Assembly (NCBI GenBank): GCA_003141555.1
Contig: PLMN01000006.1
Coordinates: 1 to 51,121, forward strand
DNA length: 51,121 bases
Direction of reading: 5' to 3'
From: Candidatus Aminicenantota bacterium
Lineage (GTDB): Bacteria; Acidobacteriota; Aminicenantia; Aminicenantales; UBA4085
Shown: piece by piece, positions 8,643 through 45,069 of the stretch
How positions within the stretch are numbered: position 1 is the stretch's first letter
Layout of the letters: each line of letters begins with the position of its first letter
Notes under the pieces: model-generated
The model's database searches: none
Seen by the model: the letters and a program-made list of their open reading frames with translations, nothing else
What the model was told of the DNA's origin: nothing
Translations under genes and position numbers: made by a program

Positions 8643-9545
8643 TTAGGCGAAGACGAGAAACGGGGCCAGGAGCGAGGGCGGCGGGGCGGGCCGGGCGAGC
8701 GCCAGCAGCGTTCCGTCCGGGCCGAGCAGTCGGACGGTGATTCCAGGCTCGGGCCCGGTGGCGGCCGGATCGGCGATGTGTTCCGGCTCCAAGGGCCGGC
8801 CGTCCTTGATCCTCAGGGCGCCCTCGGGGGTCAGGCTGAACCCGGGCAACTCCGGGAGCAGGGCTTCCATGGGGATCAGGAATCCGTCCGGTTCGCCGCG
8901 CTCCGTCAGGGCCTGGATGGTCTCGAGGGCGAAGGCCCCGTCCAGGGAAAATTCCCCGATCCTCGTCCGCTCGAGGGCCGCCAGGTGCCCCCCGCAGCCC
9001 AAGACCGTGCCGAGGTCATGGGCCAGTGAGCGGACGTAAGTCCCGGAGGAGCAATCCACCCGGAAATCCAGAAAAGGAGGGGCGTAGGACCGGATCTCGA
9101 AGGCCGTGACGGTCACGGGAACCTCGGCCGAGGCGACGGATTCCCGGCGCCGGGCGTAGGCGTACATCGGTTGGCCCCGGACTTTTTTTGCCGAGAACGC
9201 GGGGGGCTTCTGCCGCAGGTCGCCGACCATGGCCGCCATCGCCGACCGCGCCTCATCGACCGTCGGAAAGCGGTCGCTCGCCTCGCCCGTCGGCTGCCCT
9301 TCGGCGTCATAGGTGTCGGTGGCGAAGCCGAAGCGGATGCGCCCCTCGTAGCTCTTGTCCCGCTTGCCGTAGAAGGGGAAGAGCCGGGTCGCCTTCCCGG
9401 CGGCGATGAGGAGCAGGCCCGCGGCCAGGGGATCGAGCGTTCCGAAATGGCCGATCTTCTTCTGCCCGAGGATGCGTCGGAGGCGGGCGACGACGTCGTG
9501 GGAGGTGCAGCCGGACGGCTTGCGGACCGGAATCAGGCCGTCCAT
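8643..9545 (-). CDS. truB: tRNA pseudouridine(55) synthase TruB
   Basis: This enzyme makes pseudouridine at position 55 of the T-loop of tRNAs. The 300 residues match the usual size. The catalytic motif GHFGTLDPLAAGLL contains Asp38. The following KSYEGRIRFG, GTYVRSLAHDLG and HLAALERTRIGEF segments are typical of TruB. The C-terminal part (about 240-300) would be a PUA-like or short substrate-binding extension. It is the last gene of the nusA-infB-DUF503-rbfA-nrnA-truB cluster, 3 nt after nrnA, a gene order widely conserved in bacteria. Confidence 0.96.
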   Translation of the reverse strand: MDGLIPVRKPSGCTSHDVVARLRRILGQKKIGHFGTLDPLAAGLLLIAAGKATRLFPFYGKRDKSYEGRIRFGFATDTYDAEGQPTGEASDRFPTVDEARSAMAAMVGDLRQKPPAFSAKKVRGQPMYAYARRRESVASAEVPVTVTAFEIRSYAPPFLDFRVDCSSGTYVRSLAHDLGTVLGCGGHLAALERTRIGEFSLDGAFALETIQALTERGEPDGFLIPMEALLPELPGFSLTPEGALRIKDGRPLEPEHIADPAATGPEPGITVRLLGPDGTLLALARPAPPPSLLAPFLVFA

Positions 9546-9548
9546 CGC

Positions 9549-10541
9549 TCAGGCGGACGGGGCGGGGCTGGGGCCGCGGCGAGAGGAGAGCAGCCGGGCG
9601 ACGGTCTCGGGGACTTCGCGGATGAGGTTCTCGTAGGGGCCGACCACGGTAAATCCGGCGGCGTGGGCATGGCCGCCGCCGCCGAAGTGCTCGGCGATCG
9701 CGGCCGCGTGGGCGTCGCCCTTGGAGCGGATGCTGACTCGGAAGACGCCTGGCTCCATTTCCTTAAAGAAGAGGACGGCCTGGACGCCCCGGATCGAGCG
9801 CGCCTGGGTCGTGATGTCCTCGGTGTCGACCTCGAGGAGGTTCATCTCCTGGAGATCCCGCTTGAACAGGCTGATGACGGCGATGGCCCCGTCGGCGCGC
9901 ATCTCGAGCGAGGACAGGACCCGGCCGAGCAGCTTGATCTTCCCCGGGCAGGCGTTGTGGTACAGGGCCTCGCTTGTCTTGATCGGATCCGCGCCGGCCA
10001 GGACGAGCCGGTGGCAGGCGTCGAACGCCCGGGCCGTCGTATTGGAGAACTGGAAGGATCCGGTGTCCGAAACGATCGCGCAATAGAGGAGGTTCGCGAT
10101 GCGGGGCGTGACCTGGGGCAGGAGGCGCTCGCACAGCTCGAGGGCCATCTCGCCCACGGCCGAGGCGGCCGGGTCGACCCAGTTGATGTCGGCGTAAAAG
10201 TCGTTGGAATAGTGATGATCGATGTTGATCTTAAAATAGCCGTCCAGGCCCTCCTGGCCAGATCGGGAGACATCCGCGCATTCGAGGAGGATGACCGCAT
10301 CGAAGCCGCGCGCCGGAATCTGTCCGATCATGATCCGGGCGCAGTCGGGGAACTCGACGAAGGGGAAGGGCGTCTTGTCCTTGTTGACGACCGCCACTTC
10401 CTTGCCCAGCTCCTCGAGGGTGAAGGCGATGGCCAAGCTGGTCGATAGGGAGTCCCCGTCGGGCCGGAGGTGGGAGGTGATGGCCAGGCGGCGGCAGTCC
10501 GCGAGCTTGCGGACGATTTGGTCAAGAGGCGGAGCGCTCAT
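9549..10541 (-). CDS. nrnA: Bifunctional oligoribonuclease/PAP phosphatase NrnA (DHH-DHHA1)
   Basis: This is a cytoplasmic phosphoesterase; characterised members degrade nanoRNAs and/or dephosphorylate pAp. The 330 residues have an N-terminal DHH domain with metal-binding HLRPDGDS (24-31), the name-giving DHH at 108-110 and SDTGSFQ (158-164). The C-terminal DHHA1 domain carries GGGGHAHAAG (about 288-297), which binds substrate phosphate. The gene overlaps the end of rbfA by 20 nt and is followed 3 nt later by truB. The DHH gene in this exact position between rbfA and truB is common in bacteria. Confidence 0.93.
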   Translation of the reverse strand: MSAPPLDQIVRKLADCRRLAITSHLRPDGDSLSTSLAIAFTLEELGKEVAVVNKDKTPFPFVEFPDCARIMIGQIPARGFDAVILLECADVSRSGQEGLDGYFKINIDHHYSNDFYADINWVDPAASAVGEMALELCERLLPQVTPRIANLLYCAIVSDTGSFQFSNTTARAFDACHRLVLAGADPIKTSEALYHNACPGKIKLLGRVLSSLEMRADGAIAVISLFKRDLQEMNLLEVDTEDITTQARSIRGVQAVLFFKEMEPGVFRVSIRSKGDAHAAAIAEHFGGGGHAHAAGFTVVGPYENLIREVPETVARLLSSRRGPSPAPSA

Positions 10542-40769: not shown

Positions 40770-41369
40770 ATGAAAGGCATCAAAAAGCAAGTCGTCCTTG
40801 TGTTGGCCATCGCCGTGGTGCTTGCCGCCTGCAAGCAGCCCACGGAGCAGATCAACAACGCCAAGGCCGCCCTCGAATCCGTGATGAAAGCCGGTGCGGA
40901 CAAGTACGCTGTCGACGAATACAAGAAGCTCGACGGCGACCTGAAGGCCGCCCTGGACGAAGTCGCCGCCCAGGACAAGAAGTTCTTCAAGAAGTTTGGG
41001 ACCGCCAAGGAAATGCTGGCCAAGGTTCTGACCGACGCCGACACCCTGAAGGCCGCTCTCCCCGCGAAGATCGAAGCCGCCAAGAATCTGGCCGTTTCGC
41101 TTCAGGGCGAAGCCCGCAAGGGTCTGGACGCCGCCAAGGCCCTCCTCGACAAGGCTCCTAAGGGCAAGGGCACCGCGAAGGACCTCGAGGCTCTGAAGGG
41201 TGATCTAGCCGGCGCCGAAACTTCGTTCGCCGACATCCAGAAGGCCATTGACGCCCAGGACTACATCGTCGCCCAGGACAAGGCCAAGTCCGTTTCGGCC
41301 GCCGCCGCCAAGGTGTCCGAGCAGGTCCAGGCCGCGATCGACAAGATCAAGGGCATCGTCCACAAGTAA
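40770..41369 (+). CDS. Helical Ala/Lys-rich lipoprotein with C-terminal Lys, possible Braun lipoprotein analogue
   Basis: This 199-residue lipoprotein has lipobox VLAAC with lipidated Cys21 and Lys at +2, which would not retain it in the inner membrane by the E. coli rule. The mature part is predicted to be almost wholly alpha-helical, rich in Ala, Lys, Asp and Glu (NNAKAALESVMKAGADKY and similar), and may belong to the DUF4398-like group. The last residue is Lys (GIVHK). The next two genes encode YkuD-domain enzymes. In E. coli the C-terminal Lys of the helical lipoprotein Lpp is joined to peptidoglycan by such enzymes, so an analogous tether is a strong hypothesis. AAAAGGAGG precedes the ATG at 40770 by 8 nt. 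Confidence 0.85.
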   Translation: MKGIKKQVVLVLAIAVVLAACKQPTEQINNAKAALESVMKAGADKYAVDEYKKLDGDLKAALDEVAAQDKKFFKKFGTAKEMLAKVLTDADTLKAALPAKIEAAKNLAVSLQGEARKGLDAAKALLDKAPKGKGTAKDLEALKGDLAGAETSFADIQKAIDAQDYIVAQDKAKSVSAAAAKVSEQVQAAIDKIKGIVHK

Positions 41370-41389
41370 GGGAATCCTCGACGATTCCC
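41370..41389 (+). other. Intercistronic hairpin
   Basis: GGGAATC (41370-41376) and GATTCCC (41383-41389) form a perfect 7-bp stem immediately after the lipoprotein stop codon. There is no T-run, so it is more likely a partial terminator or mRNA end-protecting structure than a full terminator. Confidence 0.5.
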
Positions 41390-41409
41390 GGTTCGGACAG
41401 CGGTTCCCG

Positions 41410-42522
41410 TTGAGAGTGTTCGATCGATCAACGGGGGCTTTGCTGGTCGGACTGTGCTTTTTCAGCGCAGCGTGTAGCACGCCGCCGGTCCCGCCGGAGT
41501 TCTCCCAGGCCCAGCGTCTGGACGAGGAGCTCCGGGGGATCGGCGTTTCTTTTTATGCCTCCCAGGATCTCGAGCGCTTCGAGGTCGGACTGAAGTCCGC
41601 CAAGGCCAGGATCGGGGCCGAGCGGGCAAAATTCGGCTGGTTCCGCGACTACGGTCCGGCGACATCCGACTTGCGGAAAACCCTCGACGAGGGCGAAGCC
41701 CTGCGGCGGAGGATCGTGTCCCTCAAGACGTCCAAGACCGAGACCTTCCGCGCCCGGGCGGACTCGCTGACCGAACGTGTGGCCAAGATCAAGCGGATGA
41801 CCGGATTTTTCAACGAAAGCGCTCCGGTGCGGATGAACCTTTCCCAGGCCGAGATCAAGCTGTCCGAGGCCGACTTTCTGCTCAAGAAGGAAGAGTACGA
41901 CGCCGGCTCCAAGGATCTGGCCGAGGGGGAATTCCATGCCCGCGCGGCCGAACAGGCCATCGCCGACGTCCTGAGCCGCTACCGCGACAGGAACGAGATC
42001 GCGAAGTGGCGGACATGGGCCCAGGAGACGATCGAGGAGTCCCGCCAGCGCGGAACCGTCGTCTTCCTCGTCAGCAAGCTCGAGCGGAAGATCACGATCT
42101 ACAGGGCCGGGGCCGCGATCGGGTCGTTCGACATCGGCCTCGGCCGCTACGGGCTGTCCGACAAGCTCTATGCGGGCGATGAGGCCACACCCGAAGGAAG
42201 GTACAAGGTCATCCAGAAGTTCCCGGCGAGCGATTTCTACAAGGCCCTCTTGATCAACTATCCCAACGATGAGGATCGGAAGGCGTTCGCCGAGGCTCGG
42301 CGGAAAGGGCTGATCCCCGGCCAGGCGGGGATCGGCGGGGCGATCGAGATCCACGGCGGGGGCAAGGACAGCCTGACGAAGGGCTGCGTCGGCCTGGAAA
42401 ACAGGGACATGGATCGCGTCTACGATTACGCTCGGGAGGGGACGGCCGTGACGATCGTCGGGTTCGTGTCGGTCGAGAACACGATCCTGGCTGAAATCGA
42501 GAAGCTCAACATCCATGACTGA
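41410..42522 (+). CDS. YafK/DpaA-like YkuD-domain lipoprotein
   Basis: This 370-residue protein (from the TTG at 41410; GTG at 41416 is the alternative, and no good ribosome binding site is seen) has a lipoprotein signal ending FFSAAC with Cys22. A long charged helical or coiled-coil stalk (about 45-205) precedes a YkuD catalytic domain (about 215-355). His315 and Cys326 (IHGGG, TKGCVGL) are the catalytic pair. The short His-Cys spacing, a Lys where canonical enzymes have the His of S/T-H-G-C, and the preceding TPEGRYKV and FYKALLINYPNDEDR segments resemble E. coli YafK (DpaA/LdtF), which releases Lpp from peptidoglycan. It overlaps the next gene by 8 nt. Confidence 0.85.
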   Translation: MRVFDRSTGALLVGLCFFSAACSTPPVPPEFSQAQRLDEELRGIGVSFYASQDLERFEVGLKSAKARIGAERAKFGWFRDYGPATSDLRKTLDEGEALRRRIVSLKTSKTETFRARADSLTERVAKIKRMTGFFNESAPVRMNLSQAEIKLSEADFLLKKEEYDAGSKDLAEGEFHARAAEQAIADVLSRYRDRNEIAKWRTWAQETIEESRQRGTVVFLVSKLERKITIYRAGAAIGSFDIGLGRYGLSDKLYAGDEATPEGRYKVIQKFPASDFYKALLINYPNDEDRKAFAEARRKGLIPGQAGIGGAIEIHGGGKDSLTKGCVGLENRDMDRVYDYAREGTAVTIVGFVSVENTILAEIEKLNIHD

Positions 42523-43168
42523 AAAGAAGAGGGGCCGGGTTTTCATTGTCGTTCCAGCGGTTCTGGTCGTTGTCCTCGCCGGACTGGAGATCGGCGGGAG
42601 GCTCGTCGAGCGGAGCCTGCGGAGGACGGCCGCGGCCGAAACGGCGGCTTTGGCGGAGGGGAAGAGTCCCCGTGAAATCGCGGCGCACGCCGCGCAGCTC
42701 GAGGCCCGGCTGAAATCGCTCGCGCCTTGGGGGCTTTACGTGGTGATCGACACCGCGGCCAACCGGCTGTACCTGGTCCGGGACCAGAAGGTCAAACGGG
42801 AAGTCGTGGTCTCGTGCGGTTCGGGCGACGTCCTCGAGGAAACGGGCGGGAGCCGCAAGTGGATCTTCGATACGCCGCGGGGCGAATTCAGACTGACGTC
42901 GAAGCTCGTGAAGCCGACCTGGATCAAACCGGATTGGGCCTTCATCGAGGAAGGGGAGAGGCCGCCGACGAATTTCAACGATCGGGTGGACAACGATTCC
43001 CTGGGCGATTACGCCCTCGGTTTCGGGGACGGGTATTTCATCCACGGAACGCTTTACACGAGACTCCTGGGGCGAAACGTCACCCACGGCTGCGTCCGCG
43101 TAGGCGACAAGGACCTGAAGGAGCTCTATCAAATCGTCCCCATGGCCACGAAAGTCTATATTTATTAG
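42515..43168 (+). CDS. L,D-transpeptidase (YkuD domain)
   Basis: This 217-residue membrane-anchored enzyme has an N-terminal membrane helix (about 9-27), a short helical linker and a YkuD domain (about 73-217). The canonical motif is complete: FIHGTLY (His177) and, 16 residues on, THGCVRVG (His191, Cys193). Such enzymes make 3-3 cross-links or attach proteins to the diaminopimelate of peptidoglycan. The start codon lies 8 nt inside the upstream YafK-like gene, so they are translated together. With the Lys-terminated lipoprotein two genes upstream, a role in attaching that protein is plausible but unproven. Confidence 0.92.
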   Translation: MTEKKRGRVFIVVPAVLVVVLAGLEIGGRLVERSLRRTAAAETAALAEGKSPREIAAHAAQLEARLKSLAPWGLYVVIDTAANRLYLVRDQKVKREVVVSCGSGDVLEETGGSRKWIFDTPRGEFRLTSKLVKPTWIKPDWAFIEEGERPPTNFNDRVDNDSLGDYALGFGDGYFIHGTLYTRLLGRNVTHGCVRVGDKDLKELYQIVPMATKVYIY

Positions 43169-43181
43169 CGGGAGCCGGGGC

Positions 43182-43835
43182 ATGAAGGCGAAAATAGCGG
43201 CGATTTTGGCGGTGGCGGGCTTGTCTCTCGCCGTCATGATCTTCGCCCAGGATGCCGCGAATATCGCCGCGAAAACCCGGATTCTTGAAAGCGAAGGGGC
43301 CCTGGCTAAGAATTCCGCGTCGTACATGGTCATCGACCTGCCGGCGCGAATCATCCAGCTGAAGGCCAGGGGATTCGTCCTGAGGAGCTGGGAAATCATG
43401 AGCGAGCGTGTCTGGGGCAAGCCCGTCGAGCCCAAGACTTTCAAGCTCGTCGGCAAGTCAGCCCTCTCGAAGCCGGAGCGCAAGAACATCACGCCCGGCA
43501 AGAAGGACCCGAATAGCGCCAAGGCTAAGAAACCTTCTTCGGAGCCCGATATCCTTGAGCTCAAGGATATGCCGATCCATTACAGCTTGATATTCGGGGA
43601 CGATATCCGAGTTTCGATCAGGCCCAAGACATCGCGCTTCTGGCCGTCGGTCGTGAACTTCGCCAAAGGGGTGTCGTGGTTCGGATATCTACCCTTGAAG
43701 ACTCTCTGGTTGTCGCTGAAGCATAGAACGTTCACGGAGATCGAAATCCTGATGCCGACGGAAAATGATGCAAAAAGCTTATATTGGGCTTTTCTTGAAG
43801 GGCTAGGCGCAATTATAATAAGTCCTTCAAAATAG
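43182..43835 (+). CDS. Exported protein of unknown function, possible catalytically dead YkuD-like protein
   Basis: The 217 residues have an N-terminal signal peptide (MKAKIAAILAVAGLSLAVMIFA) and no recognised domain. The segment YMVIDLPARIIQLKARGFVL (48-67) resembles the first strands of YkuD domains, but no HG...GC motif follows, so a degenerate or regulatory relative is possible. A basic, Pro/Ser-rich linker lies near 95-122 and a strand-rich end follows. It starts 13 nt after the L,D-transpeptidase and is the last gene of the unit. Its 3' end is more AT-rich than its neighbours. Confidence 0.7.
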   Translation: MKAKIAAILAVAGLSLAVMIFAQDAANIAAKTRILESEGALAKNSASYMVIDLPARIIQLKARGFVLRSWEIMSERVWGKPVEPKTFKLVGKSALSKPERKNITPGKKDPNSAKAKKPSSEPDILELKDMPIHYSLIFGDDIRVSIRPKTSRFWPSVVNFAKGVSWFGYLPLKTLWLSLKHRTFTEIEILMPTENDAKSLYWAFLEGLGAIIISPSK

Positions 43836-43886: not shown

Positions 43887-43901
43887 CACGGCTGTCTAAT
43901 C
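43887..43901 (+). repeat. Left terminal inverted repeat of the IS
   Basis: CACGGCTGTCTAATC. The last nine bases are the exact reverse complement of the inner part of the right repeat. The transposase stop codon (43900-43902) overlaps this end. Confidence 0.85.
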
Positions 43902-45069
43902 ATAAGTTGAGCAAAAGTAATTGGTTACAGTCATCGGCTATCGAATCATGATCGTCCGAAAACGTAAGCAGTTGATTCAATGGGATTTTCTCGAACGCAG
44001 TCACGCTCAAAATCTGCAAAAAATTGTAGAGCGGAAGCTCCATGGCCAGATTCTTCTTGATGATCGCGACGAGCGCATAAACCGTGATGGCCACCCAAAT
44101 CTGCGTCCGCACAGCGTTCTCCGACGTTCCATAAAACGACTTGATGCGAAGATTTTGCTTAATCCAGCGGAAAAACAGTTCGACGCGCCAGCGGAGTTTG
44201 TAGAGTTGGGCGATTGTCAGCGCAGGCTGAAGAAAGTTGTTGGTCAGAAACGTGAAGTGACGATCATTCTCCCGATCGTAAAAACGGATCCGACGAAGAG
44301 TCTCAGGATAATCGGTTTTAGATTTGTGGCCGGCCAGAACGATCGTTTGATCAGAGGTCAGGTCCATAGTTTTATCGACGGGTCGAGACGAGAGTCGTCG
44401 CGATTGAAGATTCGATTTGGCCCGGATGACGAAAAATGCGCTGTGCCGATGAAGAGTGTAGAGCCGGGCATAGTCCAGATAGGCACGGTCCAGGATGTAG
44501 AAGGCACCAGGCTCGAACAGAAGGTCGTCGAGGATTCGGACATCGTGCGTTTTTCCATCCGTCATCTGGATAAAAGTTGGGATCGAGCCCCTCATGTCGA
44601 GAAGGGTATGGAGCTTGATGGCGCCTTTGCGTTTGCGGAACTTGGCCCAAGGAAAAAGCGAGAGGCACAAGTCGATCGTCGTGGAATCGAAGGCGAAGAC
44701 TGTTTCCTTGAGCTTCAAGCCGATGTCCTCGTCGTGGTCAATTCGCCGGGCTTCGGTGATGAGCACTTGGGCGAAATCGGCATAGATCCGCCAATCGCGG
44801 GTTTCGTTGGCGTTGGCCAAGTTGCATCGAGAGACGCGGCCCCGGATGCCCATGTGGTAAAGCCGATTCTTCATGGTCAGAAGACAAGCCTCGATATCGC
44901 GGAGGCTTTCCCGGTAAGTCAGTTGGGCGAAAGCCAGACACAGGAACTGATCAAGACAAAAGAAGCGTTTGATTTTGTAATCCCCGCGGTAGCGCCGCAC
45001 GCATTTTCGGAATTCGTGCATTGGCAAAAAGGCCATGATCTGGGCGAAGACGGTCGGCTGAGTGTTCAT
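43900..45069 (-). CDS. IS4-family transposase
   Basis: This DDE transposase of 389 residues has an N-terminal region of the DUF4372 type (QIMAFLPMHEFRKCVRRYRGDYKIKRF, then FAQLTYRESLRDIEACL). The catalytic core has first Asp in VFAFDSTTIDL, second Asp in YILDRAYLDY, and the IS4 signature Y-(2)-R-(3)-E-(6)-K in YKLRWRVELFFRWIKQNLRI. All catalytic residues are present and the frame is intact, so the element may still be active. A ribosome binding site (AAGGAGCG) lies before the ATG. Confidence 0.93.
   Translation of the reverse strand: MNTQPTVFAQIMAFLPMHEFRKCVRRYRGDYKIKRFFCLDQFLCLAFAQLTYRESLRDIEACLLTMKNRLYHMGIRGRVSRCNLANANETRDWRIYADFAQVLITEARRIDHDEDIGLKLKETVFAFDSTTIDLCLSLFPWAKFRKRKGAIKLHTLLDMRGSIPTFIQMTDGKTHDVRILDDLLFEPGAFYILDRAYLDYARLYTLHRHSAFFVIRAKSNLQSRRLSSRPVDKTMDLTSDQTIVLAGHKSKTDYPETLRRIRFYDRENDRHFTFLTNNFLQPALTIAQLYKLRWRVELFFRWIKQNLRIKSFYGTSENAVRTQIWVAITVYALVAIIKKNLAMELPLYNFLQILSVTAFEKIPLNQLLTFSDDHDSIADDCNQLLLLNL

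Follow-up and report, generated by a model that had tools for sequence, protein, structure and literature searches.

A conserved four-gene lipoprotein and YkuD cassette in an Aminicenantia genome as a candidate Lpp-unrelated tether between outer membrane and peptidoglycan

A cassette of four consecutive genes, here named P1 to P4, was analyzed in a 51,121-nucleotide stretch of DNA from a Candidatus Aminicenantota bacterium (assembly GCA_003141555.1, contig PLMN01000006.1, positions 1 to 51,121), which is referred to as the window and belongs to a genome of 3.79 Mb. An earlier note on this DNA, made from the letters alone (the sequence-only reading), had proposed that the cassette encodes a lipoprotein tether with its own attaching and releasing enzymes. 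The four open reading frames (ORFs) follow one another on the + strand, P2 and P3 overlapping by 8 bases, and the features used below are:

40770..41369, + strand, P1, a helical DUF4398-like lipoprotein and proposed tether (ORF, lipobox, conserved residues, profiles)
41343..41345, + strand, codon of P1 Lys192, the sole C-terminal Lys that is invariant in the aligned homologues (Lys in 75/75)
41364..41366, + strand, codon of P1 Lys199, the terminal residue pointed out in the sequence-only reading (terminal residue counts)
41416..42522, + strand, P2, a lipoprotein stalk (about residues 20-212) followed by a YkuD domain (214-348) (PF03734, 8ikr, model)
42163..42165, + strand, codon of P2 Lys250, the counterpart of DpaA Lys83 (Lys in 75/75, alignment to 8ikr)
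42352..42354, + strand, codon of the P2 catalytic His313 (His in 75/75)
42385..42387, + strand, codon of the P2 catalytic Cys324 (Cys in 75/75)
42515..43168, + strand, P3, an N-terminal membrane anchor and a canonical L,D-transpeptidase domain (PF03734, conserved residues)
43182..43835, + strand, P4, an exported, helix-anchored predicted pseudo-YkuD protein (model, fold search, weak profile kinship with P3)

The order P1-P2-P3-P4 was seen at 40 Aminicenantia loci that were read out, wherever the contig was long enough. A contig scan with the P2 alignment yielded 206 relatives, 80 of which were kept as named loci, and these have the same gene order with nearly no exceptions once contig ends are allowed for. 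With about 40 Aminicenantia loci and nearly all of the 80 loci from several phyla sharing it, the order is conserved far more than chance would produce. The two sets overlap, the named Aminicenantes loci coming largely from the same assemblies as the G-numbered genomes. Titles among the 80 loci include Aminicenantes, Acidobacteria, Nitrospirae/Thermodesulfovibrionia, Syntrophales, Desulfobacteraceae, Geobacteraceae, Desulfuromonas and others; the cassette is spread over Acidobacteriota, Nitrospirota and the former Deltaproteobacteria, genomes outside Acidobacteriota having been sampled for its prevalence. A literature search turned up no title or abstract with such a cassette.

P1 comprises 199 amino acids, with Lys199 as last residue, and has the lipobox LAAC with Cys21, so that the mature part of 179 amino acids contains 39 Ala and 30 Lys (17% Lys). 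The lipobox Cys is present in 75/75 homologues, Asp never adjoins it, and A129-P130 and K133 are invariant. P1 does not match the LPP profile (PF04728), and the same profile found no Lpp in 15 of 15 cassette genomes searched, the E. coli control being positive. A profile-profile alignment joins P1 7-177 to P2 6-172 (E 4.5e-11); by this alignment P1 and the P2 stalk are paralogues, which is new here and was missed by the sequence-only reading. DUF4398 (PF14346) is a weak match, with E<=0.1 in 17/37 Aminicenantia members (best 6.4e-6), and four other P1 homologues reach 17-24 bits and the divergent L219 24.8 bits, all under the 27.9-bit cut-off. Stalk-domain relatives in the class of Geobacteraceae consist of DUF4398 fused to LysM, a peptidoglycan-binding domain. 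As the homologous P2 stalk is modelled as several helices, the longest of 50 residues (predicted local distance difference test, pLDDT, 90.9), P1 is probably a folded helical stalk as well. A single unbroken long helix was rejected because both this model and a conserved APKGKG break in P1 oppose it.

Also rejected was the idea that a conserved hairpin in the P1-P2 gap serves expression: the window has a 7-bp stem there, but it is not conserved. Two other loci (L144 and L153) have wide P1-P2 gaps of 111-117 nucleotides with hairpins, including a 17-bp stem in L153, which suggests separate transcript ends after P1 at these loci. At a further locus, two P1-like genes stand in tandem (L152:8438-9100 and 9138-9746), with Lys at both chain ends.

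P2 begins without ATG in the window, either at GTG 41416 or at TTG 41410. Among 41 Aminicenantia loci its start was GTG in 23, TTG in 17, truncated in one and never ATG, with P1 and P3 of Aminicenantia almost always starting with ATG; ATG starts P2 in 20/76 named loci of all groups. The YkuD domain is recognized by PF03734 (E 1.6e-16), and its best solved relative in the PDB (profile A6) is DpaA (8ikr, 3.8e-10), followed by Bd1075, Csd6 and Pgp2. It resembles these three in sequence and fold; the fold search speaks mainly for the YkuD domain, whose matches dominated the list, and barely probed the stalk. Two residues after the catalytic Cys (Cys+2), where transpeptidases have Arg, most DpaA-like proteins have Ala or Asn (PMC8263019). 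At this position P2 has Ala in 38, Ser in 22 and Gly in 15 of 75 members, and never Arg. Lys250 corresponds to DpaA Lys83, the loss of which abolishes activity (PMC10653827), the position of DpaA Tyr109 is Tyr or Phe in 75/75 (Phe in the window), and that of DpaA Cys143 is Cys in 75/75. A Trp lines the D-Ala pocket of carboxypeptidases (PMC10653827); at its position, taken from Csd6 Trp158 through an alignment to 4xzz, P2 has Glu311 in 75/75 members, which speaks against a carboxypeptidase of the Csd6 type. The NCBIfam DpaA model (NF040599) matches 75/75 P2 sequences and that of the carboxypeptidase ElsL 15/75, and the window's P2 scores 30.8 bits against NF040599, far under the 365-bit equivalog cut-off. 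On the residue at Cys+2, the DpaA-like residues and the replaced Trp, we assign P2 as a hydrolase-type, DpaA-like YkuD enzyme that is no DpaA equivalog.

P3 matches PF03734 with E 3.4e-23, and H177, H191, C193 and R195, the Arg at Cys+2, are present in 45/45 members. The top NCBIfam score of the window's P3 is PRK10260, which together with PRK10190 we take to represent the Lpp-attaching LdtB and LdtA, respectively. Both models and that of LdtE match 45/45 P3 members, and the resemblance to Lpp-attaching enzymes is weak evidence because the margin over LdtE is small. P4 gave no Pfam YkuD match by sequence and no match in a PDB sequence search. Its AlphaFold2 model (pLDDT 90.6) has YkuD enzymes as best PDB matches (Foldseek, 1y7m, 7.7e-4; 4a1i with VIA Z 9.3 over 98 residues at a root mean square deviation of 3.2), and no conserved Cys column is found in the P4 alignment. 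Judged by this model, P4 is a pseudo-YkuD protein with the YkuD fold and without the catalytic Cys and His. A profile alignment (E 9.1e-6, probability 83%) links it weakly to P3, a kinship likewise new here. At one locus P4 is spread across two frames (L092:7956-8946, L157:11781-12771), possibly by a frameshift.

Seen together, the cassette looks like two pairs, the lipoproteins P1 and P2 with a shared stalk and a live (P3) and a dead (P4) transpeptidase that would sit in the inner membrane; we infer the membrane assignments of all four products from their sequences. The sequence-only reading had described four consecutive genes for a helical Ala/Lys-rich lipoprotein ending in Lys199, about three times longer than Lpp and without evident kinship to it, a YafK/DpaA-like YkuD lipoprotein, a canonical L,D-transpeptidase with His177 and Cys193, and a YkuD-like protein lacking a catalytic motif, and all of these descriptions agree with the ORFs, profiles and models obtained here.

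The C-terminus of P1 was the residue on which the proposed chemistry had been based, and its statistics were taken from the named loci. At 77 of these, P1 ends in Lys in 49 cases, in Arg in 24 and in Gly, Val, Ser or Gln in one each, 2 to 14 residues past the invariant Lys192. Conservation of the terminal Lys, on which the sequence-only reading had staked its proposal, is thereby not observed. Lys or Arg ends 73/77 P1 chains compared with 19/80 for P2, 0/76 for P3 and 8/72 for P4 as controls. Outside Acidobacteriota, Lys ends 24 of 28 distinct tails at a Lys share of 0.35 within the tails (p 5.6e-8); among Aminicenantia and their Acidobacteriota relatives, Lys or Arg ends 17 of 19 (p 2.2e-5), the p values for chain ends and for the linkage to YkuD genes given below leaving kinship between sequences uncorrected. 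In both groups, Lys or Arg is commoner at the chain end than the basic content of the tails would predict (p 2e-5 and 7e-10). What the aligned sequences conserve is Lys192 and a basic chain end; terminal Lys is strongly favoured outside Acidobacteriota, and Arg substitutes freely in the window's clade.

P1 is also tied to YkuD enzymes by occurrence. Among 94 genomes of the window's order, P1 was found in 46, and P2 largely in the same genomes. At least one YkuD gene is present in 46/46 genomes with P1, and 37 of the 48 genomes lacking P1 have none (46/0 against 11/37; Fisher p 1.2e-16). The window's own genome has just two YkuD genes, both from the cassette (P2 and P3), and three non-acidobacterial genomes likewise have only two YkuD proteins. 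Across phyla, the association of P1 with YkuD enzymes and with the cassette is supported.

These observations are consistent with a tether module unrelated to Lpp, in which P3 attaches P1 to peptidoglycan and P2 releases it, and to this reading we give a probability of about 0.5. The four genes would then join outer membrane and peptidoglycan in diderm bacteria without Lpp. The substrate would be P1, an outer membrane lipoprotein whose helical stalk is folded and whose basic chain end bears Lys in most cases. P3 in the inner membrane would link an amine of the P1 tail to meso-diaminopimelate by L,D-transpeptidation, outside Acidobacteriota probably at the terminal Lys and, where P1 ends in Arg, possibly at a nearby internal Lys such as Lys192. 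P2 has the same stalk tipped by the DpaA-like hydrolase domain, with 194 residues between lipidated Cys and catalytic domain compared with 179 in the whole mature P1, and the releasing enzyme may thereby be held near the level of the P1 tail. P4, the predicted dead relative of P3, might regulate or position it. More tentative is the extended version, a covalent tether over several phyla whose duplicated stalk is shared by the releasing enzyme and whose attachment is controlled by the live/dead transpeptidase pair; the conserved gene order, the homologies, the catalytic motifs, the co-occurrence and the predicted P4 fold come from the computations, and the location of P1, its covalent attachment, the assignment of reactions to enzymes and the stalk geometry are what we infer here. 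The own genome encodes diaminopimelate (DAP) epimerase and three OmpA-type peptidoglycan-binding domains, because of which the cassette would not be the sole contact between the two layers.

Several findings weigh against a tether of this kind. In the window's clade, Lys ends only 8/19 distinct tails, no more than expected (p 0.33), Lys and Arg swap between close relatives, and two tails end in KKIG or KKIV. Because of this interchange, classical attachment through the terminal Lys cannot be general there. Lpp of Dickeya without its last Lys is attached about 50-fold less, and Dickeya OutB, ending in Lys-Lys, tolerated losing the last Lys (PMC12274547). In the tether's favour, LimB and Lpg1810 are attached by a Lys other than the chain end (PMC12729407, PMC11841132), LimB of Coxiella through an internal one (PMC8263019, PMC12729407), from which it follows by analogy that an internal site such as Lys192 is possible. 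Further against it, some Nitrospirota (class of G142) hold P1 homologues without P2 within 1.5 kb. Most of these genomes have 1-3 YkuD genes elsewhere, and a YkuD search found none in one such genome of 1.7 Mb. (At L216-L222, the P2-less homologues nevertheless have a terminal Lys or Arg.) P2 lacks a counterpart of DpaA Tyr131, the column being mostly Leu with Tyr in 3 sequences, and Lys250 and the T-x-G-C motif also occur in L,D-carboxypeptidases; since Csd6 has Lys107 at that place, the Lys83 counterpart cannot separate an amidase from a carboxypeptidase. The outer membrane location of P1 is assumed, as Lol sorting rules are enterobacterial and may not hold here. High P1 expression, as for the abundant Lpp, was considered and is unsupported by codon usage, P1 ranking 12/33 among the window ORFs.

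Part of this evidence suits a role in peptidoglycan editing. P3 would then form 3-3 cross-links and P2 would act as an L,D-carboxypeptidase or endopeptidase like Csd6, Pgp2 or Bd1075, with P1 as a non-catalytic partner of P2 that scaffolds or activates the enzymes and whose basic tail contacts peptidoglycan only electrostatically. The paralogous stalks of P1 and P2 could pair, the P2 domain matches these enzymes by sequence and fold, interchange of Lys and Arg fits charge rather than chemistry, and some DpaA homologues may be L,D-carboxypeptidases (PMC8263019). We nevertheless consider this explanation doubtful, though a real contender, given Glu in place of the carboxypeptidase Trp in every P2, DpaA as best sequence match and the broader reach of the DpaA over the ElsL model, and the enrichment of terminal Lys beyond Lys content outside Acidobacteriota.

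A basic end that is kept whether Lys or Arg, tails such as VKQAKKSSKKK and the LysM domain of stalk relatives, a non-covalent binder, would also fit a P1 that spans from outer membrane to peptidoglycan and binds there by charge, the surrounding peptidoglycan being what the YkuD enzymes act on; this does not account for P1 being strictly linked to both a transpeptidase and a DpaA-like enzyme, and appears unlikely. Composition by itself might also account for the chain end of a Lys/Ala-rich helical protein with 17% Lys, the cassette then having a role unrelated to tethering. In E. coli, Lys is the last residue of over 20% of periplasmic proteins and lipoproteins (PMC12274547), so terminal Lys alone is weak evidence, but in both groups P1 ends in Lys or Arg more often than the basic content of the tails predicts, kinship being uncorrected, and we regard this explanation as very improbable. 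The tether reading is retained with its earlier proposal modified: an independent system with an attach/release switch is favoured by the YkuD linkage, the lack of Lpp, the DAP epimerase and the motifs, and weakened by the terminal Lys not being conserved. Likewise, the Lpp-, Ldt- and YafK-like roles proposed for one operon agree with gene set, order and motifs, but not with a general terminal-Lys chemistry.

Lpp is confined to a subset of Gammaproteobacteria, and many diderms without Lpp, Acidobacteria and Deltaproteobacteria among them, have DpaA-like proteins, for which no substrate is known there and whose role was left open (PMC8263019). This is why the finding matters: the cassette offers such enzymes a genetically linked candidate substrate, encoded by the adjoining gene, and a candidate attaching enzyme. 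Should the reading be correct, covalent tethering by lipoproteins evolved more than once, and the shared stalk suggests how release is directed to the proper depth of the periplasm.

In the surroundings of the cassette, an ORF resembling a transposase by eye (43900-45069, - strand) separates P4 from dnaK. The cassette of related Aminicenantia is followed by DnaK in 27 loci and preceded by another conserved gene in 25, the window counterpart of which is a malic-enzyme-like gene. Outside Acidobacteriota, 22 loci have, close to the cassette and for the most part downstream of it, an ORF that by eye resembles a membrane sensor kinase (e.g. L117:12300-13745) and is a possible regulator.

Known systems share single parts of the cassette. 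DUF4398 (PF14346) lipoproteins, for example those with LysM, have a helical lipoprotein domain akin to P1 together with a peptidoglycan-binding domain, in place of which P1 has a Lys-rich tail. The L,D-carboxypeptidases Csd6, Pgp2 and Bd1075 belong to the same YkuD subfamily as P2 and have the mDAP (meso-diaminopimelate)-binding Lys, and Csd6 and Pgp2 have a T-[KR]-G-C motif shared with P2, but they carry the D-Ala-pocket Trp instead of Glu311. DpaA (YafK, LdtF; 8ikr) is like P2 in its catalytic core, Lys83, the aromatic residue at Tyr109 and the lack of Arg at Cys+2, whereas P2 is a stalked lipoprotein with T-x-G-C, without a Tyr131 counterpart and with the low model score given above. Coxiella LimB and Legionella Lpg1810, outer membrane proteins held on mDAP via a non-terminal Lys, are likened to P1 by description, and no dedicated cassette of this kind was found described for them. 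Closest in its set of roles is the E. coli system of Lpp, LdtA/B/C and DpaA, which likewise comprises a helical lipoprotein with a basic C-terminus, matched here by a candidate attaching transpeptidase and a candidate DpaA-like releasing enzyme; the cassette differs in that the terminal Lys of P1 is not invariant, the P1 stalk is homologous to that of the putative release enzyme, a dead YkuD protein is included and all four genes stand together.

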